Source: a virus. From it: a DNA stretch of 22,558 bases. The DNA lies in the IMG/VR virus record IMGVR_UViG_3300021963_000709, positions 1 through 22,558 of that record. One strand, 5' to 3'. Under the pieces are notes generated by a model. That model worked only from the letters and a program-made list of their open reading frames with translations. It ran no database searches and was not told where the DNA came from. The position numbers and the translations under genes were made by a program. Below are positions 2,798 through 22,558 of this stretch, one piece after another (positions within the stretch are counted from its first letter, which is position 1; each line of letters begins with the position of its first letter).

Positions 2798-3802
2798 TTA
2801 TAAAATCGTTAGAATTGCAAATGTTATCATAATTGAAATCCAAACAATTAGAGCCTTTAGATAGGTCATAAATCCCGTATGAAAGTATTTCTGACCTATT
2901 GGTAAACATTTATGTGACGGTGATATTAAGTAAGCAGAATACTCTAATGTAAAGAATAAAACAAAATACTGCATTCCAAATACACTTGTTAATAAACTAA
3001 CAATACTAGCATATTTTGCTGATGATCCTAATAAGAATGATGCTAAGAAACCTAATACAGCCACAACCAAAATACTCTCAGGAGTTTTATATTGTTTCAG
3101 ATATTCTTCCATTTGTGGGTAATAACTTCCAATCAAATTACCAAGAATAATAATAACTGCAACAATCCAAATTAATTCCCAATTGATGTAACTAAACAAA
3201 TTCTTCCATAATTTAGAATAACTAATCAAGTAGAATGTGAATGTTGTAAATGCTGCAAAATAATAATCAGTAAAACAACTAACCAGAATCGTTACTAAAA
3301 ATGGAACAACAACAAGAAAAATGTTTTTCCAATTGATTGGTTCATCTTTAACTTCAATATCAATTTCATCATCTTCTAATGATAAAATATAATAGGTAAT
3401 ATAAAGTCCTGTTATCAACAATAACGGCCAGATATATAACATGAATTTAGAATAAGTTAAACCCAATACCGCCATTGGGATGATGACTGTTTTTTCTAAT
3501 GGTGACCACAGATAATAATGGTGAGTTGCTAAGTAATCAATAATACCAAACTTTTTACGTTTCTTATTATCAACTGGTGCAATACTATTCAACATAGATG
3601 CAGACAGAGCCACACGACCTGGTATCGGTAAAATTCCTCCAAATAATGATACGAGGAATACAACCATTTTTTTAGATTTAACTTTCTGTTCAAGTAATCT
3701 GAAGATGTCCATAAGGTATCCTCTTTCTTTGAGGATACCTGTTACGAACATAATGAATATTAGATAGACAAGGAATTCTTGTCCTTTGATTAAAATCTCC
3801 AT
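2798..3802 (-). CDS. DUF401-like polytopic inner-membrane permease
   Basis: This 334-residue protein has about nine or ten hydrophobic segments (roughly residues 10-26, 47-62, 104-118, 122-142, 153-170, 173-190, 203-222, 240-260, 265-285, 312-333), so it should sit in the inner membrane. The sequence FGGILPIPGRVALSAS after the second segment and the HHYYLWSPLEK loop resemble the 'G.LPIPGg...SAP' and 'RHiwEy..PLyp' signatures of DUF401 integral membrane proteins, a family of predicted ten-segment transporters of unknown substrate. An Asp/Glu-rich loop (about 142-152) separates two halves. Its ATG lies inside the 3' end of the outer-membrane barrel gene (13-base overlap), so the two are probably translated together. 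Transporters of this type are rare in phages, and acquisition from a bacterial host is likely. It could serve uptake or superinfection exclusion; neither is shown. Confidence 0.6.
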   Translation of the reverse strand: MEILIKGQEFLVYLIFIMFVTGILKERGYLMDIFRLLEQKVKSKKMVVFLVSLFGGILPIPGRVALSASMLNSIAPVDNKKRKKFGIIDYLATHHYYLWSPLEKTVIIPMAVLGLTYSKFMLYIWPLLLITGLYITYYILSLEDDEIDIEVKDEPINWKNIFLVVVPFLVTILVSCFTDYYFAAFTTFTFYLISYSKLWKNLFSYINWELIWIVAVIIILGNLIGSYYPQMEEYLKQYKTPESILVVAVLGFLASFLLGSSAKYASIVSLLTSVFGMQYFVLFFTLEYSAYLISPSHKCLPIGQKYFHTGFMTYLKALIVWISIMITFAILTIL

Positions 3803-4674
3803 GCGAATATAATTGTGCTTCTTGATAAATGTGATGCGTCTGTTAAACCATGCATGTGTTCAACACTTAGATAGGCTCTATTGTTAAAACGGTATTGTAC
3901 AAGAGGACCGAAATAAACTTCGGTAGATCCTCCACCATAATCGTTATAACGAAGCATATGTGACGCACCTAATGTTAGGTTGTTGTTAATTATCTCAGCA
4001 AACGATGCGGTGTAAGCGTATTCAGGTTCTCTTTCTTCTTTTGTTCCACCTAAATTACCTTCGTAAATAGCGTTGAAACCCCATATACCTCGTTCACCAA
4101 ATCGATCACCTAATAATAATTTAGGTTCAATTCCCCAACGACCATCTAACATTTTAGTTTCCCAATATAATGTTGGATTACCCCAAATCTTACCCCAATC
4201 GGCAAGTGCATAACGAAATTCCCAAGAGAATCCTCTCCACTTAAATTCCTTATCACCATTGTAACCATCATAAACCGTGTGAGAATATAAATCTAACTGA
4301 AGTCGTTTACCCAAACCAAATGTAAATTCATCTCTCATTCTGATTTGTGTGGCACCATCTCTTCTGTTTCTAATATCAAACCACTTCTCGTACATTGCGG
4401 TACCAGGAGGATTCATCACATAAACTCTGGTGGATGGGAACATTCGTATTGTTGTCCAAAGTGGTTGCCCATATGGACCAACTTTGGTCATTAATGGAAC
4501 TTTCTTTGCTGTAACAACAATTTCTTGTAATTGATTAGGGACAGTGTCCGTTTGAACTTTTGAGGATTGTTCTGAACCTTTCTGAATTGCGCTACTACTA
4601 TATTGTCCAAATGACATAGTGGTAGTAAACAATAGTGCTAACATTAGCGATAGCATTGTAATTGTTTTTCTCAT
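3790..4674 (-). CDS. Outer-membrane beta-barrel protein with signal peptide and TonB-box-like motif
   Basis: The 294-residue product starts with a clear signal peptide: MRK, a hydrophobic core at residues 7-20, and SFG/Q cleavage near 23/24, typical of Bacteroidota. EIVVTA at 51-56 matches the TonB box/plug start of TonB-dependent receptors. After that come alternating strands rich in Tyr, Trp and Phe (for example GFSWEFRYALADWGKIWGN, then GIEPKLLLG and GIWGFNAIYEG), and the last residue is Phe (FAWRF), the usual signal for BAM-mediated barrel insertion. At about 270 mature residues it is far too short for a 22-strand receptor; a barrel of roughly 10-12 strands fits. The ADWGKI.GNPTLYWE region resembles bacterial outer-membrane proteins of unknown function, so the gene was probably acquired from a host. 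A 57-base AT-rich leader precedes it and the permease gene overlaps its end. Confidence 0.8.
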   Translation of the reverse strand: MRKTITMLSLMLALLFTTTMSFGQYSSSAIQKGSEQSSKVQTDTVPNQLQEIVVTAKKVPLMTKVGPYGQPLWTTIRMFPSTRVYVMNPPGTAMYEKWFDIRNRRDGATQIRMRDEFTFGLGKRLQLDLYSHTVYDGYNGDKEFKWRGFSWEFRYALADWGKIWGNPTLYWETKMLDGRWGIEPKLLLGDRFGERGIWGFNAIYEGNLGGTKEEREPEYAYTASFAEIINNNLTLGASHMLRYNDYGGGSTEVYFGPLVQYRFNNRAYLSVEHMHGLTDASHLSRSTIIFAWRF

Positions 4675-4731: not shown

Positions 4732-5064
4732 TTATAAAATGTTTCTAAGGATAATTGTTAATGAAATAACAATCCATAAAGTGTTGAAAACTATGAGAGT
4801 AGGTAATGATTTTTTCATACTTGCCCAAATTAAAAGGGATGACGTGGTTAATGTTAAAAAATGTAACCACCATATCTCTTTTCCAAATACCAAACCTGGA
4901 ACTATGATTGCTGCTTTAGCCATCCATGCTGCAAATTCGATTGTATTGTAATCGGTCCAATAAGATTTGTCAAAATACATTAATAATTTTTGATGTATTT
5001 TTTTAATACCGATTAATTTAAAAAGAAAAAATATAAAAAAAATGTATGTTAAAATATAAATCAT
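4732..5064 (-). CDS. Small multi-pass membrane protein of unknown function
   Basis: The product is 110 residues. Hydrophobic stretches at about residues 2-18, 46-60, 66-83 and 88-106 suggest three or four membrane passes, with a short polar loop at 22-42 containing YFDKSYWTDYN. I do not recognise the family. The start codon overlaps the methyltransferase stop as TAATG (one shared base), so translation is probably coupled. Together with the outer-membrane barrel and permease downstream it forms a run of envelope proteins at the end of the operon. It might assist the pair or be a separate superinfection-exclusion type protein; this is inference from position only. Confidence 0.7.
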   Translation of the reverse strand: MIYILTYIFFIFFLFKLIGIKKIHQKLLMYFDKSYWTDYNTIEFAAWMAKAAIIVPGLVFGKEIWWLHFLTLTTSSLLIWASMKKSLPTLIVFNTLWIVISLTIILRNIL

Positions 5065-5729
5065 TATTTACCAATTAAAAATATACCTAAACCATTCCAA
5101 AAATCTTCAGGGTCTTCACCTGATGTGAATATTTCTTTTGAATGGAGAACGTGTAAATTATTATTATCTAAAAATTTTTCTAATGCACCACTATCCCAAT
5201 TCCAATCATCCATAATTAAAATAGTTTCATCTGAAAATATAGGTAACATATTTGTTAGTGCAACATATTGATCATGAAATTTAGTTTCACCATCATAAAA
5301 TACGATATCAACATTTGGTAAAGTTTTAAAATCAAATGTTTGGTAATCTGTTTTATAAACAGATATTTTATTTACATCACCAAATTTTTTTACATTATTT
5401 AAAAATTCTTCTTGTGGTGGTATATCTATATTATGTTTATAATAGTTTCCAATTTTTTGACTTACACCTCTTGGTGTTAAATTTGGTGACATAAAATTGT
5501 CTACTCCAGTAGCAAAAATATCGTTACCATAAATCGCTGAACAAAATGTGGCACCTCTGAATATACCAACCTCAAGATAATTTGCACCATCAATATCACA
5601 AATGTTATTTAAGAAACATTTAACCTTATTACTTGTGATTCCATGAATATCTAAAATATCTTGATTTAATTTAGATACCTCAAGTCTACCCCACTCAATA
5701 GAATCGTCAATATGTTTAATTAAGTCCAT
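5064..5729 (-). CDS. Class I SAM-dependent methyltransferase
   Basis: This is a Rossmann-fold methyltransferase of 221 residues. LEVGIFRG (residues 52-59 from the chosen start) is motif I, the SAM-binding glycine loop. VDIVFYDGETKFHDQYVAL and the later ILIMDDWNWD match the 'DGdH.Y......L....pgG.ii.DD' layout of the Methyltransf_24/TylF-like group, which often O-methylates sugars. The acidic DD may bind a metal. I chose ATG at 5729 rather than the upstream in-frame GTG at 5762, because the sequence after it (MDLIKHIDDS) starts a plausible helix and the longer form adds only a hydrophobic-basic string inside the previous gene. Even so it overlaps the U32-like gene by 14 bases. Neighbours are iron-sulphur enzymes, with glycosyltransferases a few kilobases away, so the target may be a sugar or a peptide. 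Confidence 0.85.
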   Translation of the reverse strand: MDLIKHIDDSIEWGRLEVSKLNQDILDIHGITSNKVKCFLNNICDIDGANYLEVGIFRGATFCSAIYGNDIFATGVDNFMSPNLTPRGVSQKIGNYYKHNIDIPPQEEFLNNVKKFGDVNKISVYKTDYQTFDFKTLPNVDIVFYDGETKFHDQYVALTNMLPIFSDETILIMDDWNWDSGALEKFLDNNNLHVLHSKEIFTSGEDPEDFWNGLGIFLIGK

Positions 5730-6753
5730 ATGATTTTTTCTTATGATCCGCAACAATATCACAATAGTTACAATCCCAACATTGGAATTTACATTTTTTT
5801 ATTTTATTTCTCCATCCTCTTAAGTCTTCGTGTGGTATACCATCAAGATATATTTCAGATGTCTTAGACAAAACATCTTTACCAGATACAAATGAATCAA
5901 CAATTTCAATAGTTTCATCTAAACGATTAAAGCTATCTCTACCATGCATTTTGAACACATCAATGTATTCTAAGAATTCATCAAACTCTTCTTTGAATGG
6001 TGGAATGGTACCAGTCTTAAAAAAAAATGCATTTATTTCTTTCTCCCACTTGTATTCACAAGTTACTTTTGAAATCTCATGATGAAAATATGGTAACTCA
6101 TTTGGTTCACGAAGATTGTTGTATGAATAATGTTCATCCATTACCGGACATCTACCTAAACAACCTTCATTAACTAATAGTGACAGTTTAACATATCTAC
6201 CTTTCTCTTCGTAGTATTTTTGTTGGGCTCTTTTAATGTTCTTTAATTCCTCAACATCTCTCATCAAAATTCTATCAAGATTGATATAATCGAATCCTTG
6301 GTCTGCATTATACCAAAAGTCTTGTCCGGTTGCAACTTTTCTTAAGATAGTGTTTTTAATTTCCATTTCAGGAAAGTGTTTCTTAAGACCCATGGCAACC
6401 CAATGACCATGTGGGATAGTTATACACCTCAAACCTTTTTCATATAAAGGTTTTAAATTTTCAACAAACAGTTTATAATTTTCATACTTTGGTGAAACAT
6501 TGACGTTATTGAATGTCGCACTAATAGTGATTCCCAAAGATTTTTGTATAATCATTGCATTATCAAAAACGGCATCCTTAAATTCATCTGAGAAAACAGA
6601 ACCCATAGCATCTTGTGTAAATGGTGGGATTCTGCAAGTAAAATAGACATCATAAATCCATTCTTTATTTTTTTCTAAGAATGGATAAAATTTATGTACA
6701 AAATAATCCGTTGATAACATTGGATTAAGTGGTATTGAGAATATCTTTTTCAT
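5716..6753 (-). CDS. U32-like iron-sulphur protein
   Basis: The protein has 345 residues, probably a TIM-barrel. The strand and loop LSLLVNEGCLGRCPVMDEH, with Cys198 and Cys202, resembles the N-x-GC...CP cluster loop of U32 'peptidase' family proteins, a group whose characterised members (UbiU/UbiV, RlhA, TrhP) bind a 4Fe-4S cluster and work in hydroxylation rather than proteolysis. Four more cysteines sit at the C-terminus (321, 325, 328, 331, spacing CX3CX2CX2C), which suggests a metal or second cluster site. There is no CX3CX2C near the N-terminus, so it is not a classical radical SAM enzyme. Its ATG overlaps the stop of the radical SAM gene upstream as TAATG, and the methyltransferase overlaps its 3' end. 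The close coupling argues that the three act in one pathway. Substrate unknown. Confidence 0.6.
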   Translation of the reverse strand: MKKIFSIPLNPMLSTDYFVHKFYPFLEKNKEWIYDVYFTCRIPPFTQDAMGSVFSDEFKDAVFDNAMIIQKSLGITISATFNNVNVSPKYENYKLFVENLKPLYEKGLRCITIPHGHWVAMGLKKHFPEMEIKNTILRKVATGQDFWYNADQGFDYINLDRILMRDVEELKNIKRAQQKYYEEKGRYVKLSLLVNEGCLGRCPVMDEHYSYNNLREPNELPYFHHEISKVTCEYKWEKEINAFFFKTGTIPPFKEEFDEFLEYIDVFKMHGRDSFNRLDETIEIVDSFVSGKDVLSKTSEIYLDGIPHEDLRGWRNKIKKCKFQCWDCNYCDIVADHKKKSYGLN

Positions 6754-7754
6754 TATTTGTTACCTTCTAAACAACCCCCACAGATTCCGTTACATTCGGT
6801 CTTATAGAAGACGCAATCTAAACAACCTTGTGGTATTGTATAATCTTTATGATTCAGAGTATAAAGTCTATCAAACTCATCCCTAAGACCTAATATACCA
6901 TTTTTTCCTGAGATTTCCAAAACATTTGGGATGTTTACTTTATCTTGAAGTGGGTAACAATGGATTGAGCTACCATCTGGAAATATATCTAATGGCATAA
7001 ATCCACAAATAGTATCGTGACCTGGTATTTTAAATGTTGCGAAATTGTATGAATTTTCTATTACAGTATTTTTAGTTTTACCTTCCCATAAACATGGTGG
7101 GACTTGACAATCAGATGTTATTTTTACGTTATTATAAACCCCAAATTTTAATATTTTTGTTAACTCTATACCTAATTCTTTATTATTGATTAGATATGTA
7201 CCGGTTAAATCGAGACCTACTCTAAATGCATTTACTTTATACTCTAATTCATTGTATAACCATTTTATATAATCAAATATTTTTCTTTCTTCCCAATCCG
7301 ACGATAATGTAATTGCAATAAAAAGTCTTGGGTTATCTTCAAATCCCCAAGTATTGGCATACGCCGAATAAAGAGATAGATAATTTTTTTTAAATAAATT
7401 TATTCTATTTTTTTCATTTAATTCTGCACCGTTCGGTAAAATCCATTTGATATGTTTTATATTACTTATAATATAATCCAACGTAAATTGACCAAATAAT
7501 AAATTACTAACAAGATTTATCTTGAATCCTCTTGAAATAATATAATCTATTATACCAATAAAATTTGAGTGTTGTGTGGGTTCACCTCCAAGGATTGTTA
7601 TCTCTTCTTTAAATTTCTTTAACTCAAAGTGATCAAGAACCTGACCAATTTTTTCTATAGACATTTCACCAAGAGTATGTTTTAATCTAGCATCCTCTTT
7701 GGTGAAACAAAATGAACATCCTTTAGCACACGAACCGTTGATTGCTAAATTCAT
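6753..7754 (-). CDS. Radical SAM enzyme with SPASM-like C-terminal cluster domain
   Basis: The product has 333 residues. CAKGCSFC (Cys9, 13, 16) is the CX3CX2C motif that ligates the 4Fe-4S cluster cleaving S-adenosylmethionine, and GGEPT (56-60) is the second radical SAM signature. The C-terminus carries a SPASM/twitch-like set: CGFMPLDIFPDGSSIHCYP in the last quarter, then Cys311, 314, 321, 325 and 328 (CX2CX6CX3CX2C), expected to hold auxiliary clusters. Such enzymes commonly modify peptides or proteins, sometimes carbohydrates. The start is well fixed: the SAM motif begins only nine residues in. The gene follows a 9-base gap after an unknown helical protein and is coupled (TAATG) to the U32-like protein. 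No candidate RiPP precursor is visible in the flanking gaps, so a protein, nucleic acid or sugar substrate is equally possible. Confidence 0.92.
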   Translation of the reverse strand: MNLAINGSCAKGCSFCFTKEDARLKHTLGEMSIEKIGQVLDHFELKKFKEEITILGGEPTQHSNFIGIIDYIISRGFKINLVSNLLFGQFTLDYIISNIKHIKWILPNGAELNEKNRINLFKKNYLSLYSAYANTWGFEDNPRLFIAITLSSDWEERKIFDYIKWLYNELEYKVNAFRVGLDLTGTYLINNKELGIELTKILKFGVYNNVKITSDCQVPPCLWEGKTKNTVIENSYNFATFKIPGHDTICGFMPLDIFPDGSSIHCYPLQDKVNIPNVLEISGKNGILGLRDEFDRLYTLNHKDYTIPQGCLDCVFYKTECNGICGGCLEGNK

Positions 7755-9314: not shown

Positions 9315-10424
9315 TTATTGTCTCCAACCACAATGACCAGAAGAAGTACCCCCATTTACACCTGGATTTAAACCAGTTACACTACTAGTTCCACTATCCG
9401 TTGCATACCAAAACTTCCAACTTGTATTATTTTGTGCGCCATCATAATTCCCCAACATATATTGCCAATCTTGACCCATGGTAAAATTCTCTTCACCACA
9501 GTTAGGATGTGGTTTAGATACATTACCGATATTAGTATCATTACTAGTTTGCCATCTTCTTAGGTTGTATCCACCTGAGTAGGAACCCTCATTACCACAA
9601 TACCCCTTACCATATTTTGAACTAATTCCTTTTTGTTGTGCGTGTGCACTCCAATGAGTTGAGGATGTTGGGGTATCGTTTGAGAAATTGTATTTTATTC
9701 CGGCACTACTTGTCCAACCATACCCAAAGGATTCATCAGAAAAAGCAGACCCTCCATCAGAACCATTTATGGTTGTAACGGCAAATCCTGAAACTAAACT
9801 TTCGTTTGTTAAATTAAATTTCTCTAATGTTGTTGATCCACCTGAAAACAGATAAGCGAATTCCGTTTCTTTGTGCATAGTACCTAAATCACTTCTAGCA
9901 ATAGCATTATTAAATTTAGTTTGGTGGGTATATGTTGTGTCTGTAATCATATTTATTGCAGATGTTCTTGTACCATCTACACTATCCGGTCCTTTAAATG
10001 CCCCATCTGTGTTAACTGACCACACAAAAAATATGGATTTATTACATGCTCCCGATGTATATGATGCGGGGTAATCTAAAAGCTCACCAATATGGGTTGT
10101 TTGATCATTCAAATTGGTTGTTTTGTGTACATTTCTCCATGGTGAGGAATTCTTATAACCACCAGCCAAATATGAATAATTAATTACTTGTCTATATCTA
10201 AATGAAATAGGTTGAAACTCTTGTGCTGCAACTCTTTCCCATCCATCGTCTATATTAGAAATTCCGGTATATAACATCAAGAAACTTCCACTATTAGATT
10301 GTTCTAAATATAAAGAACCTGATCTCGGACTAGTGGGTCTGTTTGCTCTAGTGCCTCTAGGCGGTCTATTAACAACCCTATCAGAATTTAAACTACCACT
10401 AACTTCTAAGTTTTCGTATATCAT
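9315..10424 (-). CDS. Tail-fibre/adhesin paralogue A
   Basis: This is the last of three tandem paralogues, 369 residues. Residues 1-65 are a short adaptor: LEVSGSLN, a Pro/Arg-rich patch (PPRGTRANRPTSP), then GSLYLEQ...GSFLMLYTG...GWERV, a phrase common in fibre proteins of marine myoviruses. From residue 76 (RYRQVINYSYLAGGYK) to the end runs a domain shared with both neighbours, rich in Gly, Ser, Asn, Trp and aromatic residues. It contains DYPASYTSGAC, EENFTMGQDWQYMLGNYDG and the C-terminal SSGHCGWR. No enzymatic motif is visible. The role is probably a receptor-binding or fibre-tip protein on the virion. Identity to paralogue B is very high across the last 100 residues and lower in the middle (about 130-240), as expected for variable recognition loops. 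Confidence 0.8.
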   Translation of the reverse strand: MIYENLEVSGSLNSDRVVNRPPRGTRANRPTSPRSGSLYLEQSNSGSFLMLYTGISNIDDGWERVAAQEFQPISFRYRQVINYSYLAGGYKNSSPWRNVHKTTNLNDQTTHIGELLDYPASYTSGACNKSIFFVWSVNTDGAFKGPDSVDGTRTSAINMITDTTYTHQTKFNNAIARSDLGTMHKETEFAYLFSGGSTTLEKFNLTNESLVSGFAVTTINGSDGGSAFSDESFGYGWTSSAGIKYNFSNDTPTSSTHWSAHAQQKGISSKYGKGYCGNEGSYSGGYNLRRWQTSNDTNIGNVSKPHPNCGEENFTMGQDWQYMLGNYDGAQNNTSWKFWYATDSGTSSVTGLNPGVNGGTSSGHCGWRQ

Positions 10425-10436
10425 TTATTTTTTGTT

Positions 10437-11546
10437 TTATGATCTCCAGCCACAATGACCAGAAGATGTTCCGTTATTCACACCGGGGTTTAATCCACTA
10501 ACGCTGGTAGTTCCCGTATCTGTAGCATAATAAAATTTCCAACTTGTATTATTTTGTGCACCATCATAGTTACCTAACATATACTGCCAGTCTTGTCCCA
10601 TGGTAAAATTCTCTTCTCCACAATTTGGATGTGGTTTAGACACGTTACCGATGTTGGTATCGTTAGAATTACTCCATCTTCTTAATGCATAACCACCTGA
10701 ATAGGACCCATCGGCACCCGCATATCCTTTTCCAATTTTAGAACTAATTCCTTTTTGTTGGGAGTGATTACCCCACTGAGTTGATGATGTAAAAGTTTCA
10801 TTTGCAAAATTCATTTTAACACCTTCACTTGAAGTCCATCCGTATCCAAAAAATTCGTCAGAAAATGCTGACCCACCATCAGCTCCACTTATTGTGGACA
10901 AATTATTACCATATAATATTGTTTCATTATTTAAATCAAATTTTTCTACTTTGGTTGATCCTCCACTAAAAATCCATGCAAAATTTGTTTCTTGGTGCAT
11001 TGTTCCACAATCCGATCTAGTTTCTGTTATATCAAATCTTGATTGGTGTGCATACTTTGTATCATTTGCCATGTTGACAGCGGCGGTCCATAATCCATGT
11101 TTATCTGAAGCAGATTTCCATGCACCGTCTGTGTTAACAGACCAAATAAAAAGAACATATCTACTACATGCACCCGATGTATATGATGCTGGATAATCTA
11201 ATAGTTCCCCCATATGAGATGTCTGATCTGTTGCGTTTGTTGTTCTGTGAACATTTTTCCATGGTGAAGAATCTTTATAACCACCTGCTAAATAACTGTA
11301 GTTAATGATTTGTCTATACTTAAAACCCGCGATGTTTGGATTTGTTTGTGACGAAACCCTAACCCAACCACTATCATTATTACTCACCCCAACATAAACC
11401 ATTAAGAAACTACCTGTTGTTGATTCCTCAAGATATAATGAACCAGATATAGGTGACCCAGGTCTATTTGCTCTACTACCTCTTGGGGGTGTAAAAGTAA
11501 ATTGTCCTCTTAATGATCCACTAATTTCTATATTATCGTGACGCAT
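10437..11546 (-). CDS. Tail-fibre/adhesin paralogue B
   Basis: This has the same length (369 residues) and architecture as paralogue A: IEISGSLR start, PPRGSRANRPGSP patch, GSLYLEE...GSFLMVYVG, then the shared domain from YRQIINYSYLAGGYK, ending SSGHCGWRS. Cysteines at TSGAC, NCGEEN and GHCGW are preserved in A, whereas the KGYCG cysteine of A is KGYAG here. Differences concentrate in the middle third (SASDKHGLWTAAVN and the segment around ILYGNNLSTISG), while the C-terminal third is nearly identical. The gap to the upstream paralogue is 14 bases without a Shine-Dalgarno. Likely a virion surface protein for host binding. The duplication suggests alternative or co-assembled tips. Confidence 0.8.
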   Translation of the reverse strand: MRHDNIEISGSLRGQFTFTPPRGSRANRPGSPISGSLYLEESTTGSFLMVYVGVSNNDSGWVRVSSQTNPNIAGFKYRQIINYSYLAGGYKDSSPWKNVHRTTNATDQTSHMGELLDYPASYTSGACSRYVLFIWSVNTDGAWKSASDKHGLWTAAVNMANDTKYAHQSRFDITETRSDCGTMHQETNFAWIFSGGSTKVEKFDLNNETILYGNNLSTISGADGGSAFSDEFFGYGWTSSEGVKMNFANETFTSSTQWGNHSQQKGISSKIGKGYAGADGSYSGGYALRRWSNSNDTNIGNVSKPHPNCGEENFTMGQDWQYMLGNYDGAQNNTSWKFYYATDTGTTSVSGLNPGVNNGTSSGHCGWRS

Positions 11547-11560
11547 ATTTTATAAATAGT

Positions 11561-13081
11561 TTATGACCTCCAACCACAATGACCAGATGATGTTCCATTA
11601 TTAACACCTGGAGATAAACCCGCAGGATTACTTACACCACTGTCGGTGGAATAATAAAATTTCCAAGAATTATTATTTTGGACACCGTTATAATTTCCCA
11701 ACATATACTGCCAGTCTTGGCCCAATGTAAAATTTTCTTCACCTGTGTTACCTTCTGGTTTTGAAACGTTTCCAATATTTGTTTCATTGAATGCGTTCCA
11801 TCTTCTCAAATTGTAACCACCATTATATGTTCCTTCGTTTCCAGCATAACCTTTACCCCACTTAGAACTAATACCTTTTTGTTGACCACTTGCACCCCAT
11901 TGTTGGCTATTTGTAAATGTATCTGTAGCGAAAAATAATTTATTACCACTCTCTGAACCATAACCGTATCCATAGTTCTCATCTGAAAATCCGGAACAAC
12001 CTAATGAACTTGTTATAGATGTTTTCAATGTTAGGTATGGTTCCATATTTGGATAATACACACTATACATTGTTTCATTAGTTAAATTAAATTTTTCTAC
12101 GGTAGCAACACCTCCACCAAAAACCCATGCGAATTCTGTTTCTTGGAACAAAGTTCCTAAGTCGTCTCTAGCATTTGCTAAATCCCATTTTGATTGATGT
12201 GCATAGGCAGTTTCGTTTACCATATGAACACCTGTTGTATATGTAGAATGTATTGTTGTGGCCGACTTCCATGCACCATCCGTATTTGTTGACCAAATAA
12301 ATAATATACTTTTACTACATGCACCTGATGTATATGAACATGGGTAATCCATTAGTTCTCCAAGATGAACCGTTTGGTCAGTTGAATTTGTTGTTCTGTG
12401 AACATTTTTCCATGGAGATGAATCTTTATAACCACCAGCCAAATAAGAATAATTAATTACTTGTCTATATTTGAATCCGATTCTATCTGTATTTTGTGAA
12501 CCAACCGGTTCCCAACCACCGTTTATGTTTGAAGATGCTGTATAGGTATAAACTGTTGCATCTGTTTTGATACTCGATGAAATATTAAATAAGAAATTGG
12601 TAATTACAATATTGTTTCCACCACCGTTATATCTTAAATAGAATTGTATTGCTCCTGTTGATGTTAGGTTAACAGTTGCAGTGTGTACCTGTGGTGTTGT
12701 GGTTGCACTTAATGTTGTATTAAATGAATCATTATTAACACCATCATTATCTAATACTAATGATGCGGTACCATCTAATGTGAAATAAACAAAACTTAAA
12801 GTGTGATTACCTGTTGCAGTTGTGGTTGCTGGAAAGTTACCAACCCAACCAGATGACGATGTTTTTAGTAAAACACTATCAACAGCCAAAACGGTATAGT
12901 GTGCACTATTACCTCCGTAGTCTGCCCAAGAACGTGCAATTGACGTTCCACTATATACTTCCTCCAAATATAATGAACCAACGTCGGGACTTGATGGTCT
13001 ACCGCTTCTTGGTCCTCTTGGTATGATATATTGTCCACTAACATTTAAAGAGCCACTTACAACTACGTTTTCTCTTAACAT
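11561..13081 (-). CDS. Tail-fibre/adhesin paralogue C with inserted beta-rich domain
   Basis: The 506-residue protein is the first transcribed of the three paralogues. Its N-terminus (VVVSGSLN, PRGPRSGRPSSP, GSLYLEE) and its C-terminal domain from YRQVINYSYLAGGYK (residues 205-219) to SSGHCGWRS match A and B. About 135 residues are inserted between them (roughly 45-180), replacing the GSFLM.Y.G segment. The insert is Thr/Ser/Asn-rich with alternating hydrophobics (HTLSFVYFTLDG, AIQFYLRYNGGGNN, NIVITNFLFNI), the pattern of a beta-sandwich such as a carbohydrate-binding module. The C-terminal half also differs from A and B by an enlarged loop (NMEPYLTLKTSITSSLGCSG). Likely a host-binding structural protein with an extra binding domain; the sandwich assignment is inferred from strand pattern only. 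Confidence 0.8.
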   Translation of the reverse strand: MLRENVVVSGSLNVSGQYIIPRGPRSGRPSSPDVGSLYLEEVYSGTSIARSWADYGGNSAHYTVLAVDSVLLKTSSSGWVGNFPATTTATGNHTLSFVYFTLDGTASLVLDNDGVNNDSFNTTLSATTTPQVHTATVNLTSTGAIQFYLRYNGGGNNIVITNFLFNISSSIKTDATVYTYTASSNINGGWEPVGSQNTDRIGFKYRQVINYSYLAGGYKDSSPWKNVHRTTNSTDQTVHLGELMDYPCSYTSGACSKSILFIWSTNTDGAWKSATTIHSTYTTGVHMVNETAYAHQSKWDLANARDDLGTLFQETEFAWVFGGGVATVEKFNLTNETMYSVYYPNMEPYLTLKTSITSSLGCSGFSDENYGYGYGSESGNKLFFATDTFTNSQQWGASGQQKGISSKWGKGYAGNEGTYNGGYNLRRWNAFNETNIGNVSKPEGNTGEENFTLGQDWQYMLGNYNGVQNNNSWKFYYSTDSGVSNPAGLSPGVNNGTSSGHCGWRS

Positions 13082-18294: not shown

Positions 18295-21200
18295 TTATTT
18301 GTGTTCAGTTATTAATTTATCAACGTCTTTACGTTCTGCAAATACAGTATAATAACAATTTATATTTGCATCACCCCCAACAATTATTTCATTTGAATTA
18401 ACTGATTCAACAAACAATACTTGTTGTGAACCAATAGGTGTTAAATTAACAGTTATGGTGTCTTCATGAATTAATGCATACCAATAATCAGGTAAAACTA
18501 TTTTATTTTCACCAACCAATTTACCTCTAACATATACAGCATGTTCAGGTCCTTCAAGAACACCGTATTGTAATTTCAATCCTTCTTTTGTTGGGTGTTC
18601 AATAGTAAATGATTTAACTGTTGCAGTCAATGTTCCACCAACTGTTAATGTTGACCCATCAAATGTTAAGTTTGATGATGATTGAAATGCAGATGTTCCA
18701 TTACCGTAAGGAATTCTATTAGCGGTTAATGATGATAAACCAGTACCACCATAAGAAACACCAACGGCAGTACCATTCCATGTACCTGATGTAATCGTAC
18801 CACTAGAAATGGTTAAACCATTTACAGCACCAGCAAATGATGCACCAGTAAAATCTAATGTTAAATAATCTTTGTATGTTGAATCATCTCTAAATGCTCC
18901 AAAAATAAATCTAGCGTTCGTACCATTTAATGCCGTTCTAACTAAACGAATGTCACCTAAAACTCTACCACTACCAATTGAACCACCAGGATTGATTTGT
19001 AATGTGATATTTGAATATTGACCAGCAGCATTTGTCGAACTTGTATTTTGCATCACAAAGAAACGTCCCGCATCTGTTGGGTCGGTATTTGCTGAATATG
19101 TTTGTGTTGAACCTGTTTGGACTGTCAACACACCTCTACTATCCGTTCCACCAATTTGCACTCTGCCTGTAGATGTCATTCCTGCGAATGTTGGTGTTGC
19201 GGAGGTATGTATGTCTTGTGGTAATGAGAATGTTACCGCTCCTGTGTTGGCACTAACATTTACTTGATTTGTGGTTCCCGATACCGATGTGATTTTTGCA
19301 TCGGTATAAGACGTGCCGATTGAAGACCCGTTCCAAGTACCTGAAGTAATTGTACCTGAAGATACTGTTAATCCATTTATAGTACCAGGGAAAGATGTGT
19401 TACCACTACCGTCTAATAAAGTTGCGGTTCTTGCAACAGTTGCAAACACTCCTGTATATTGTCTAACATAAATTGGTTCTGTTCCATCATCTGATGTTGC
19501 GATTTCAATCCATCCCGTATTATAGCTATCTGAACCTCCTCGAACACGAACATAATCATCGGAACCAACATTTGCATATAAGAAATTTTCTCCGACACCT
19601 GATGCTAATGTTTTGGTTACAGTTCCATCAATAGAAACGCCAGTTAATGTTTGTGATGCAGATGCTCTACCTAATGATATAGATGTTGTACCAATATTAA
19701 ATGATGAATTTGTTAATGACGAATTACCAATATTTGTAATTGTATTTGATGCACCACTAATTGTTTTGTTTGTTAATGTTTGTGTTGTAGTTCTTAATAC
19801 AACATCATCTTCAGATCCCAAAGGACCAGCAATCCATTTATCATTTGCCGTGTCCCAAAGTAATGACCCCGAAGTCAATGTTGATGCTGTCGCGTCTCTA
19901 ACAACTATACCTGCATTTGTTGCACCTGTTCCATTTAATTGAATAATATTATCCGCAATATTAACTGTTGTTGAGTTTACAGTGGTTGTTGTACCCGATA
20001 CAGTAAAGTTACCTTTAACGGTAACATCGGTACCACTTAAACTAAACGCACTATTAAATGAATTTGTAAAACTATTCAAACTACTTGTGGCAGTATGAAT
20101 TGCATTTATATTAGTTGTATTACTACTTGTATAAGAATTTAAACTACTAGTTGTTGCTTGTAATGTACCAATAACTGTATTGTTACTTCCGGTATACGTG
20201 TTTAATGATGCAATTGAACCAGTAACACCTTCTATTGATGTTAGTCTACCACCTGCACTTGAAGTAAAACTATTTAAACTAGCCGTCGCAGTGTGAATAG
20301 CATTGATGTTTGTAATATTACTACTTGTATATGAATTTAAAGATGATGTTGCTGTATGAATTGCATTTATATTTGTAGTGTTACTACTTGTATAACTGTT
20401 CAAACTACTTGTAGCCGTATGAATTGCATTTATATTAGTAGTATTACTACTTGTATATGAATTCAATGAACCAGTTGTAGTTTCAATAGCTGTTAATCTA
20501 CTATTTTGTGTATTGTTTGTTGTATTGTTTGAACTTGTATAAGAATTTAAACTACTTGTCGCCGTTTCAATACTACTTAATCTACTGTTAGTACTTGAAG
20601 TATAAGAATTCAAACTACTTGTTGCAGTGTGAATAGCGGTGATATTTGTATTATTTGAACTAGTGTAACTATTCAATGAACCTGTTGTAGATTCAATCAC
20701 CCCTAATCTAGTATTAGTACTAGACGTATATGTGTTTAGGGAGGCGGTTGAGGTTTCTAAACTACCGACTCTACTTACCGCATTATTAAATTCTGTTTCT
20801 CTAATTAATCTCTGTTCTGAACCTAATTGACCAGCAATCCAATAATCATTTGTTGCATCCCACAATAAAGAACCTGAGATTTGATTTGGAGCGGTTGTAT
20901 CTTTAACTCTTAATCCGGCAAATGTTGCACCTGTTCCATTTAAGTTAATAAGGTTATTATCAACATCAAGAGTTGTTGTGTTAACATTTGTTGTTGTTCC
21001 TTTAACTAATAGATTTCCTTTAACTGTTAAATTAGATCCCGTTAATTCTACTGCCGCTAGTATTGACGATGTAAAACTATTCAAACTACCTGTAGAAACT
21101 TGAATTGCTGTTATATTTGGACTTGATATGTTACCTGTTGCAATAAATGTACCTGTAACTTCTGTATTTGAATTAATCGATACTTTGGTTCCTGTGTCTG

Positions 21201-22558
21201 TGATATTACTATCTCCAATGTGTTCATCATTAACAGACTTAGGTAATCTATTAACTGTTAAATGGGTTTCTCCACCAATATTATTAAAAGTTTCAGGCCC
21301 CATTATTAATAATGCCGATGTTACAGATGATTGATTTTGATGTACATATAACCATTGATTTTCAACAGAATCAAATAACAATGAACCAGAAACTTGAGGG
21401 GAAGAACCACTATCTATAACTGCCAATCCACCAAATCTTACACTAGGGTTCTGAGCGTTAACTGTTATAATGTTGTCAGCTATGTTCACTACCGAAGAAC
21501 TAATGTGCTGAATTGAAGATGAACCAGCAATAATCAAATCTTGTGAAACGTAAAGTGATCCAGTTATTGTTTGATTACCTATGAATATATTACTACCAGT
21601 AGTTGCATAACTTCCGGTCTTTCCTTCGATAGAACCTAATCTATTATCCTGTCCCGCATCGGTTGTTGCCAATGATGAACTAAATGTACTATAACCTGTT
21701 GTATTAGATAACGTAACTTGTACTGAACCTGAAATAACACCATCAGAATTAAGTTTATTCTTAATGGTTGTGTCAATAGACGAAGTAAAACTATTTAAAC
21801 TACTTGTTGCATTATTAATAGCAGATATATTTGTATTGTTACTACTTGTATACGAATTTAAACTACTTGTTGTAGATTCAATTACTCCTAATCTTGTATT
21901 AGTACTAGACGTATATGTGTTTAAACTAGAGGTTGTTGATTCAATTACTCCTAATCTTGTATTATTACTTGAAGTATATGAATTTAAGCTCGAGGTTGCG
22001 GTATGAATTGCATTTATATTAGTAGTATTTGAACTTGTATAAGAATTTATACTACCTGTTGTACTTTCAAGTGCACTTAACCTACTGTTTTGTGTTGATT
22101 CAACAGTATTGTTTGAACTTGTGAATGTATTAAAATCGCTTCTTATACTAGAACTGGCAGATTCCAAAGAACTTAGTCTACTATTTGTACTAGAACTAAA
22201 TGTATTTAAACTTCCTGTTGAAATCTCAATACCACTCAAACGTGTGTTCGTGCTTGAGGTGTAAGAATTTAAACTACTAGTTGCAGATTCGATTACATCT
22301 AGTCTAGTATTAGTACTGGTGGTATAAGAATTTAAACTACCCGTCGTAGATTCAATTACACCTAATCTTGTATTTGTTGAGCTAGTGTATGTATTTAAAC
22401 TTCCTGTGGTTGTTTCAATAACAACTAGTCTTGTGTTTGTTGAGCTAGTGTATGTATTTAAACTTCCTGTGGTTGTTTCTAAAGAATTTAATCTTCCATT
22501 AGCACTAGAAGTGAATGTATTCAAACTACTTGTAGCAGTATGAATAGACGATATATTT
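18295..22558 (-). CDS. Giant coiled-coil tail fibre, 5' end beyond window
   Basis: At least 1420 residues are visible. The frame is open through the right edge (reading NISSIHTATSSL before any start), so the apparent start near 22524 (TTG) is not real. Order from N to C: a 21-residue repeat block (22558-21767); module 1 (about 21570-21285) with SVRFGGLAVIDS, VSGSLLFD; one linking repeat; module 2 (about 21055-20785) with SGSLLWDATNDYWIAGQ; a second repeat block (20780-20045); module 3 (about 20045-19755) with SGSLLWDTANDKWIAGP; two copies of an SSGTITSGTWNG segment around 19300-19390 and 18745-18830; YGGTGLSSL and NRIPYGNG fibre repeats. The final domain of about 105 residues (FTIEHPTKEGLKLQYGVLEG, LPDYWYALI, LTPIGSQQ, FAERKDVDKL) is one I recognise from the ends of marine phage fibres. 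It probably trimerises and forms a long receptor-binding fibre. No S74 autoprotease motif. Confidence 0.93.
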   Translation of the reverse strand, partial: NISSIHTATSSLNTFTSSANGRLNSLETTTGSLNTYTSSTNTRLVVIETTTGSLNTYTSSTNTRLGVIESTTGSLNSYTTSTNTRLDVIESATSSLNSYTSSTNTRLSGIEISTGSLNTFSSSTNSRLSSLESASSSIRSDFNTFTSSNNTVESTQNSRLSALESTTGSINSYTSSNTTNINAIHTATSSLNSYTSSNNTRLGVIESTTSSLNTYTSSTNTRLGVIESTTSSLNSYTSSNNTNISAINNATSSLNSFTSSIDTTIKNKLNSDGVISGSVQVTLSNTTGYSTFSSSLATTDAGQDNRLGSIEGKTGSYATTGSNIFIGNQTITGSLYVSQDLIIAGSSSIQHISSSVVNIADNIITVNAQNPSVRFGGLAVIDSGSSPQVSGSLLFDSVENQWLYVHQNQSSVTSALLIMGPETFNNIGGETHLTVNRLPKSVNDEHIGDSNITDTGTKVSINSNTEVTGTFIATGNISSPNITAIQVSTGSLNSFTSSILAAVELTGSNLTVKGNLLVKGTTTNVNTTTLDVDNNLINLNGTGATFAGLRVKDTTAPNQISGSLLWDATNDYWIAGQLGSEQRLIRETEFNNAVSRVGSLETSTASLNTYTSSTNTRLGVIESTTGSLNSYTSSNNTNITAIHTATSSLNSYTSSTNSRLSSIETATSSLNSYTSSNNTTNNTQNSRLTAIETTTGSLNSYTSSNTTNINAIHTATSSLNSYTSSNTTNINAIHTATSSLNSYTSSNITNINAIHTATASLNSFTSSAGGRLTSIEGVTGSIASLNTYTGSNNTVIGTLQATTSSLNSYTSSNTTNINAIHTATSSLNSFTNSFNSAFSLSGTDVTVKGNFTVSGTTTTVNSTTVNIADNIIQLNGTGATNAGIVVRDATASTLTSGSLLWDTANDKWIAGPLGSEDDVVLRTTTQTLTNKTISGASNTITNIGNSSLTNSSFNIGTTSISLGRASASQTLTGVSIDGTVTKTLASGVGENFLYANVGSDDYVRVRGGSDSYNTGWIEIATSDDGTEPIYVRQYTGVFATVARTATLLDGSGNTSFPGTINGLTVSSGTITSGTWNGSSIGTSYTDAKITSVSGTTNQVNVSANTGAVTFSLPQDIHTSATPTFAGMTSTGRVQIGGTDSRGVLTVQTGSTQTYSANTDPTDAGRFFVMQNTSSTNAAGQYSNITLQINPGGSIGSGRVLGDIRLVRTALNGTNARFIFGAFRDDSTYKDYLTLDFTGASFAGAVNGLTISSGTITSGTWNGTAVGVSYGGTGLSSLTANRIPYGNGTSAFQSSSNLTFDGSTLTVGGTLTATVKSFTIEHPTKEGLKLQYGVLEGPEHAVYVRGKLVGENKIVLPDYWYALIHEDTITVNLTPIGSQQVLFVESVNSNEIIVGGDANINCYYTVFAERKDVDKLITEHK
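20045..20780 (-). repeat. Tandem 63-base repeats, block B (21-residue coiled-coil units)
   Basis: A second run of about eleven units of the same 21-residue type, between modules 2 and 3 of the giant fibre. Most units here are the NINAIHTATSSL variant rather than the RLGVIE variant. One unit (about 20490-20575) is lengthened to 28 residues, i.e. by exactly one heptad. A 28-base stretch at 20711-20738 is identical to 21896-21923 in block A, showing that the blocks share recent ancestry or exchange sequence. Confidence 0.88.
21767..22558 (-). repeat. Tandem 63-base repeats, block A (21-residue coiled-coil units)
   Basis: About twelve head-to-tail copies of a 63-base unit, mostly encoding S-L-N-(S/T)-Y-T-S-S-x-N-x-R-L-x-x-I-E plus T-x-T/S-x-spacer, period 21. 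Hydrophobic or Thr positions 4, 7, 11, 14, 18 and 21 of the unit keep a 3-4 spacing, so each unit is three heptads. Two neighbouring units (about 22373-22416 and 22436-22479) are identical for roughly 44 bases. One unit is 28 residues and one has a 4-residue insertion near 22132-22146. The block continues past the window edge. Confidence 0.9.

Follow-up and report, generated by a model that had tools for sequence, protein, structure and literature searches.

A phage gene pair predicted to encode an outer-membrane barrel and an elevator-type permease, and its proposed reading as a two-membrane uptake module

To our knowledge, the phage nutrient genes described so far encode mostly single enzymes, binding proteins or parts for a single membrane, and we know of no function for the DUF401 family. 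The megaphage Mar_Mega_1 carries a SusC TonB receptor, for which uptake has been suggested (PMC9723777), and a TonB receptor of Polarivirus skadi has been taken as a sign of adsorption (PMC10504331). For the CsgG-type pore genes of pelagimyophages, uptake of larger molecules has been considered (PMC7029224). Among the DASS/INDY transporters, VcINDY possesses Ser-Asn-Thr (SNT) motifs, and the place of the two sodium ions is taken by an Arg and a His in LaINDY (PMC7553777).

We analyzed a 22.6-kb stretch of DNA (22,558 nt) from an IMG/VR virus record, referred to at its full length as the window. Two ORFs described in an earlier note on this DNA were found at the same positions, on the minus strand, which that note had omitted. 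The first encodes a predicted outer-membrane β-barrel protein of 294 aa (4674..3790, minus strand) and the second a predicted inner-membrane permease of 334 aa (3802..2798, minus strand), which is similar to DUF401 and TIGR00529. The genes overlap by 13 nt (3790..3802, minus strand), where the terminal AWRF and stop codon of the barrel and the initial MEIL of the permease are written in common bases (...TTCGC-ATGGAGATTTTAA...); the overlap and the position of the permease ATG inside the last codons of the barrel were exactly as previously noted. The same 13-nt overlap was observed in dozens of IMG/VR contigs and is present in most of the loci in which the barrel gene comes first. In some relatives the gene order is reversed and the pair is still adjacent. 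Compared pairwise with relatives, the barrel gene of the window gave dN/dS values of 0.04-0.14 and the permease gene values of 0.03-0.10, indicating that both genes are under purifying selection.

A first scan of IMG/VR detected 66 barrel loci. In a second scan 80 loci were kept, 77 of which had the permease on the locus. Since one of the three permease-less loci ends at a contig edge, the evaluable set is 77/79, and the exceptions are L256 and L261; no permease was detected on the 119-kb contig of L256. The two proteins are thus found together in other phages, as their proposed pairing had implied. At least 585 relatives of the permease were present in IMG/VR viral contigs, whereas 84,980 species genomes, searched with patterns nearly identical to the permease, yielded one relative, which indicates that the permease clade is essentially viral. 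This lone cellular-looking relative (L290) came from a small-genome MAG of a phylum that rarely has DUF401, and no outer-membrane gene was seen beside it. A search of plasmids with the permease found none.

When the permeases were clustered at 90% identity, an outer-membrane partner was fused to the permease, next to it or no more than a few kb away in about 48 of 88 clusters, or about 48 of the 69 outside the cyanophage type. Neighboring outer-membrane genes were called by Pfam scans; a predictor based on a signal peptide and a C-terminal Phe missed clear barrels. The cyanophage type, which is carried by the Synechococcus phages S-H25, S-CAM4, ACG-2014j and metaG-MbCM1, accounts for the remaining 19 clusters and had an adjacent outer-membrane partner in none of them. 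About 20 other clusters had no partner within the visible stretch, and a search of nine permease-only contigs for the 12-strand barrel elsewhere on the contig found none. These partner-less permeases suggest that the permease can work alone or via a host porin. The pair had been described as not being a standard phage module, which is right, although the permease itself occurs in hundreds of viral contigs, including those of many T4-like cyanophages without an adjacent partner.

The barrel protein begins with a signal peptide (4606..4674, minus strand; about residues 1-23, MRKTITMLSLMLALLFTTTMSFG), as read from the sequence, which is followed by a linker predicted to be disordered (residues 21-54). 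The TonB-box-like segment EIVVTA (4507..4524, minus strand; residues 51-56) recurs in an alignment of homologues (A1), although the linker around it varies strongly. These two features and the C-terminal Phe had all been pointed out before, and all three are present. An ordered, plug-like pre-barrel segment (4399..4500, minus strand; residues 59-92, VGPYGQPLW..RMFPSTRVYV) is highly conserved in the alignment, with V65, G66, Q70, P71, W73, R77, R83 and Y85 invariant. It was modeled with a pLDDT of about 75-90, and the superposition with FapF begins at its first residue, 59; the segment may serve as a plug. The structure model, which was built from 25 homologues, predicts a 12-strand barrel (3796..4398, minus strand; residues 93-293), mostly with a pLDDT of 90 or more, in agreement with the β-barrel proposed earlier. 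Many charged residues of the barrel are invariant (R112, R114, E116, R124, D128, E152, R154, E172, E183, K185, E205, E218, R242, E272 and R285) and, judging from the alternation along the strands, would face the lumen.

The nearest solved folds for the barrel model were FapF (Z 22.9) and the COG4313 channel 4rl8 (Z 21.0 over 213 residues), which places it among 12-strand channel folds; KdgM/NanC-type channels and autotransporter barrels came next. Searches of Pfam, PHROG, NCBIfam, PDB sequences and INPHARED with the window barrel gave no significant match. Amyloid secretion of the FapF kind was considered as a function and rejected, since the likeness is one of fold alone, at 14% identity. TonB-dependent receptors have a plug inside a 22-strand barrel, whereas the window barrel has 12 predicted strands and no Plug match in Pfam. 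We know of no precedent for a 12-strand barrel with a TonB box but no plug, and the box might be a remnant of a shared leader.

The permease matched Pfam DUF401 (PF04165; E=6.5e-10, 39.3 bits vs a gathering threshold of 24) over residues 11-331 (profile positions 60-388), so that the DUF401-like assignment made earlier now stands above a curated cut-off. It also matched PHROG 14035 (E=1.7e-83). Against TIGR00529, the NCBIfam equivalog of AF0261, it scored 54.8 bits vs a cut-off of 378.4, which indicates a related non-member. No real match to PDB sequences was obtained with shallow or deep profiles, and no solved DASS protein was retrieved. A structure model built from 77 homologues, from which cyanophage rows had been omitted (pLDDT 89, pTM 0.85), matched LaINDY (Z 24.1), NaDC1 (23.9), Pho90 (23.4) and NaS1 (22.7), whereas unrelated folds gave Z below 5. 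The superposition with LaINDY covered 331 of the 334 permease residues with an rmsd of 3.6. The permease is thus predicted to adopt an elevator transporter fold of the DASS/INDY type. The ten segments counted earlier are only approximate, as the model is of the elevator type with re-entrant hairpins, while a transporter fold is indeed predicted. Since the superposition starts at residue 90 of LaINDY, the permease appears to be without the N-terminal part of DASS proteins.

More than 30 residues are invariant across the permease alignment. The first-hairpin motif, S52..GGILPIPGR63VALSA..L71 (3587..3649, minus strand), contains ten of them in 77-80 aligned sequences (S52, G56, L58, P59, G62, R63, V64, S67, A68 and L71). 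In HHYYLWSP (3500..3523, minus strand; residues 94-101) H94, H95, Y96, Y97, W99, S100 and P101 are invariant; in the second-hairpin motif GSSAK (3014..3028, minus strand; residues 259-263) G259, S260 and S261 are invariant and K263 is nearly so; and in SPSHKC (2906..2923, minus strand; residues 294-299) S294, P295, H297, K298 and C299 are invariant. Among relatives these motifs take the forms GGILPIPGR, HHYYxWSP, GSSxK and SPxHKC. Neither of the two SNT substrate motifs of DASS proteins was found in the conserved hairpins. Because GGILPIPGR and GSSxK stand where SNT would be expected, the permease is better described as working like a DASS protein than as being one. R63 and K263 sit at the two hairpin motifs and may take the role of the sodium-replacing Arg and His of LaINDY. 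The permeases of five loci (L043, L044, L059, L267 and L268) are shortened, with about 45 mid-protein residues absent, which suggests that a natural minimal version of the transporter may exist.

A different outer-membrane protein takes the place of the barrel in other loci. This TonB-receptor-like protein of about 590 aa has the same signal peptide, followed by a TonB-box-like segment (EVVVV or PVVV). A dedicated scan detected it in 25 viral loci, and the permease adjoins it, in either order, in 23 of the 23 loci that no contig end interrupts. The only family found for it was Pfam Plug, which five of seven members matched weakly, below the cut-off and with E values no better than 0.013; its motif IDGIKFNNSLFRTGPNQY..DGGNIGGTINR looks plug-like. 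The 98 nt of the window at 4700-4603, which form the leader of the barrel gene, share 99% identity with the beginning of the TonB-receptor-like gene of L094. Beyond the leader the two permeases are 77% identical at the DNA level and the outer-membrane domains are unrelated. Between L298 and L297, the 5,117 nt that end at the leader of the outer-membrane gene are 97.3% identical and the 2,133 nt that follow this gene 96.0%, but their outer-membrane genes, one for a barrel and one for the 590-aa protein, are unrelated, which indicates an exact one-gene swap. On a permease tree, a quick one with a single support measure, the TonB-receptor label requires seven changes, at least six of which are forced by well-supported branches.

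Further partners were found next to other relatives of the permease. Small outer-membrane barrels with matches to OMP_b-brl, DUF2490, Phenol_MetA_deg or KdgM lie a short distance downstream, as does a TorF/Gcw_chp porin (E=4e-43). In L335 a TonB siderophore receptor is encoded 9 nt from the permease; it matched TIGR01783 with E=2.4e-58 (198.3 bits vs a cut-off of 223.5) and the Pfam families for both of its domains, Plug (E=9.7e-13) and the TonB_dep_Rec barrel (E=2e-43). A profile comparison of this receptor with the 590-aa protein gave nothing. The permease is best regarded as the constant half and the outer-membrane protein as a replaceable cassette, which can be a channel, a TonB-dependent receptor or a small porin-like barrel. 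In L093 and L094 (3103-3193) and in L008 (4878-4968), the outer-membrane gene is immediately preceded by a tRNA-Arg(CCG) gene that the window lacks; this tRNA gene is possibly a recombination site for the swapping of gates.

In three contigs from three separate metagenomes (L059, L054 and L267), permease and barrel form a single ORF of about 540 aa, which is cut at its 5' end in L054. The fused protein of L059 matched Phenol_MetA_deg above the cut-off (E=7.5e-5). The last helix of the permease leads into SSAVNA followed by EEKEQIVEEVVVV, or into TTEAKA followed by DVIEEVIVE. The junctions VNA-EE and AKA-DV resemble signal-peptidase sites and precede a TonB-box-like segment, and an in-frame ATG lies just ahead of the helix. 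The helix could therefore double as a transporter segment and a signal peptide, a dual use that might be achieved by cleavage or by internal initiation. The C-terminus of DASS proteins is periplasmic, with which the dual use is consistent. Taken together, the co-occurrence, the exact overlap, the swaps, the reversed orders and the fusions strongly support a pairing that is not due to chance.

Upstream of the barrel, the window encodes a small membrane protein of 110 aa (4732..5064, minus strand); in L061, L066, L294, L297, L331 and L359 relatives of it are encoded 8-10 nt ahead of the permease. In the window it is preceded by a Methyltransf_24-like gene (5064..5762, minus strand; likely start ATG near 5729), whose Pfam match (E=3.5e-5) is slightly below the cut-off and which corresponds to the C-terminal half of phrog_1458. 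The N-terminal half is a Cys-rich protein (5716..6753, minus strand; PHROG E=1.1e-93). These halves are separate, overlapping genes in the window (5064-6753), where a radical SAM gene (6753-7754, minus strand), which is weakly viperin-like but far below the cut-off, precedes them. In L323, L352, L370 and L043 they are fused into one gene that immediately precedes the permease. A larger obligatory cassette including phrog_1458 was rejected, as many permease-outer-membrane pairs are located elsewhere, and the Methyltransf_24-like gene is a neighbor rather than a demonstrated part of the module. In L331 and L359 a Dps/ferritin-like gene lies 60-71 nt downstream of the permease, the place of the outer-membrane gene in other phages.

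Elsewhere in the window, three consecutive paralogous tail-fibre-like ORFs of 369, 369 and 506 aa (9315-13081, minus strand) are alike in their C-terminal region, and the first matches phrog_1417; the arrangement resembles a tandem-duplicated receptor-binding cassette. A protein of at least 1,409 aa with repeated SLNTYTSSTNTRLGVIESTTG-like units (18295-22557, minus strand) runs off the window and is probably a long fibre.

An uptake module best explains why a constant protein of transporter fold occurs with several alternative gates in the outer membrane. We propose, with a probability of roughly 0.6, that during infection the phage uses this pair to bring one anionic solute across the outer and the inner membrane of the cell; the location in the membranes, the transport, its direction and substrate, the use of TonB and the benefit to the phage are what we infer in this reading. 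The barrel would act as a channel in the outer membrane that is selective for the substrate; its N-terminal segment would probably be the gate, and the conserved EIVVTA box possibly a contact site for TonB of the host. The permease, as a secondary transporter of the DASS/INDY kind, would then carry the solute from the periplasm to the cytoplasm. A small anion is the most likely solute, in view of the DASS/INDY fold and of the positively charged residues that are conserved. The candidates, in rough order of likelihood, are a dicarboxylate or a tricarboxylate such as citrate, an iron-carboxylate complex and phosphate; phosphate is suggested by the similarity to Pho90, and iron-carboxylate by the siderophore-type receptor of L335, the Dps-like gene of L331 and L359, and 2OG-Fe(II) oxygenases. 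The hosts of the window's group are likely Bacteroidota, judging from the low GC content and the style of the leader. A broader proposal, to which we give even odds, is that a dedicated system for uptake through both membranes occurs in phages whose hosts belong to several Gram-negative groups, in which a virus-specific elevator permease is combined with an exchangeable gate that alternates between a passive channel and a TonB-powered receptor while the transporter remains untouched, and that one lineage has fused both, with the last transporter helix acting as the signal peptide of the channel.

A narrower form of the uptake reading, which we regard as rather doubtful, is that a ferric-carboxylate or siderophore complex is imported to supply iron enzymes of the phage. 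The L335 receptor at 9 nt from the permease and the Dps/ferritin-like gene that adjoins it in two loci would fit such iron piracy, as would the 2OG-Fe(II) oxygenase genes that adjoin the permease in several phages, the invariant His and Cys of the permease and the radical SAM gene of the window. However, T4-like phages often carry iron enzymes of this kind in any case, DASS proteins are not known as iron carriers, and the small porin-like partners do not point to siderophores.

Phages commonly use TonB receptors and porins as their receptors, and they carry many barrel proteins. The outer-membrane protein might accordingly hide, replace or compete with the receptor of rival phages, with the permease as a helper or an unrelated passenger, and the fast swapping of partners at one site is what an arms race would give. 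Such superinfection exclusion or envelope disguise is nevertheless unlikely, because the constant partner has a transporter fold with its many invariant residues, five or more kinds of outer-membrane protein accompany the same permease, which is also kept in fusions, the barrel is under purifying selection without visible diversification, and permease-only forms persist in cyanophages. The movement of a solute and the blocking of rival phages had been the two functions envisaged for the pair; the former is favored by the DASS/INDY fold and the channel- and TonB-type partners, whereas the latter found no support.

Export, in which the permease would expel a metabolite of the host or one made by the phage and the barrel would be the exit, appears improbable. 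A small molecule could be the product of the nearby radical SAM, methyltransferase and Cys-rich phrog_1458 genes, exchangers of the DASS fold are able to run in both directions, and channels of the Phenol_MetA_deg and COG4313 types are passive, but TonB-dependent receptors act inward, one partner is of the siderophore type, and the phrog_1458 genes are absent beside many of the permease-outer-membrane pairs. That two independent auxiliary genes merely gathered at one insertion hotspot is very improbable, for the tRNA-Arg(CCG) gene in three loci, the frequent exchange of outer-membrane genes and the barrel of L256 without a permease on its contig are outweighed by the fixed 13-nt overlap, the adjacency in both orders and in different genomic settings, the fusions and the co-occurrence of 23/23 and 77/79.

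If the uptake reading is true, some phages rebuild the whole entry route of one solute during infection, and a module for both membranes would point to a solute that limits phage production and offer a direct way of identifying it. The exchange of channel and TonB gates over a constant transporter would represent a natural experiment on outer-membrane limits to uptake, and the L256 barrel without a permease a natural test of a gate working alone. The uncharacterized DUF401 family would gain a testable function.

Phage-borne TonB receptors and pores are already known, whereas the combination of an outer- and an inner-membrane protein, the swapping of gates and the fusion appear to be new: the literature searched contained no such phage pair, swapping or fusion, which is weak evidence, as subscription journals and preprints lay mostly outside the search. 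For the SusC receptor of Mar_Mega_1 and the receptor of Polarivirus skadi, the accessible parts of the reports mention no inner-membrane partner, swap or fusion (PMC9723777, PMC10504331). The CsgG-type pore of pelagimyophages is, as predicted for the window barrel, a phage-encoded outer-membrane pore, but CsgG is the curli secretion channel, and the available text mentions no inner-membrane permease (PMC7029224). The channels of COG4313/Phenol_MetA_deg and FapF share with the window barrel the 12 strands and an ordered N-terminal segment; the identity is 9-14%, and the window barrel adds a TonB-box-like segment after the signal peptide. It matches no family itself, whereas the fused homologue matches Phenol_MetA_deg. 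DASS/INDY proteins of the IT superfamily (LaINDY, VcINDY, NaDC1, Pho90 and NaS1) resemble the permease in the predicted fold over its whole length and in the two hairpin motifs, but differ from it in sequence, with 8-14% identity and no profile match, and the SNT motifs of VcINDY contrast with GGILPIPGR and GSSxK. With respect to DUF401 and TIGR00529 (AF0261), the permease passes the Pfam cut-off and falls far below that of TIGR00529, and the viral clade has motifs of its own.
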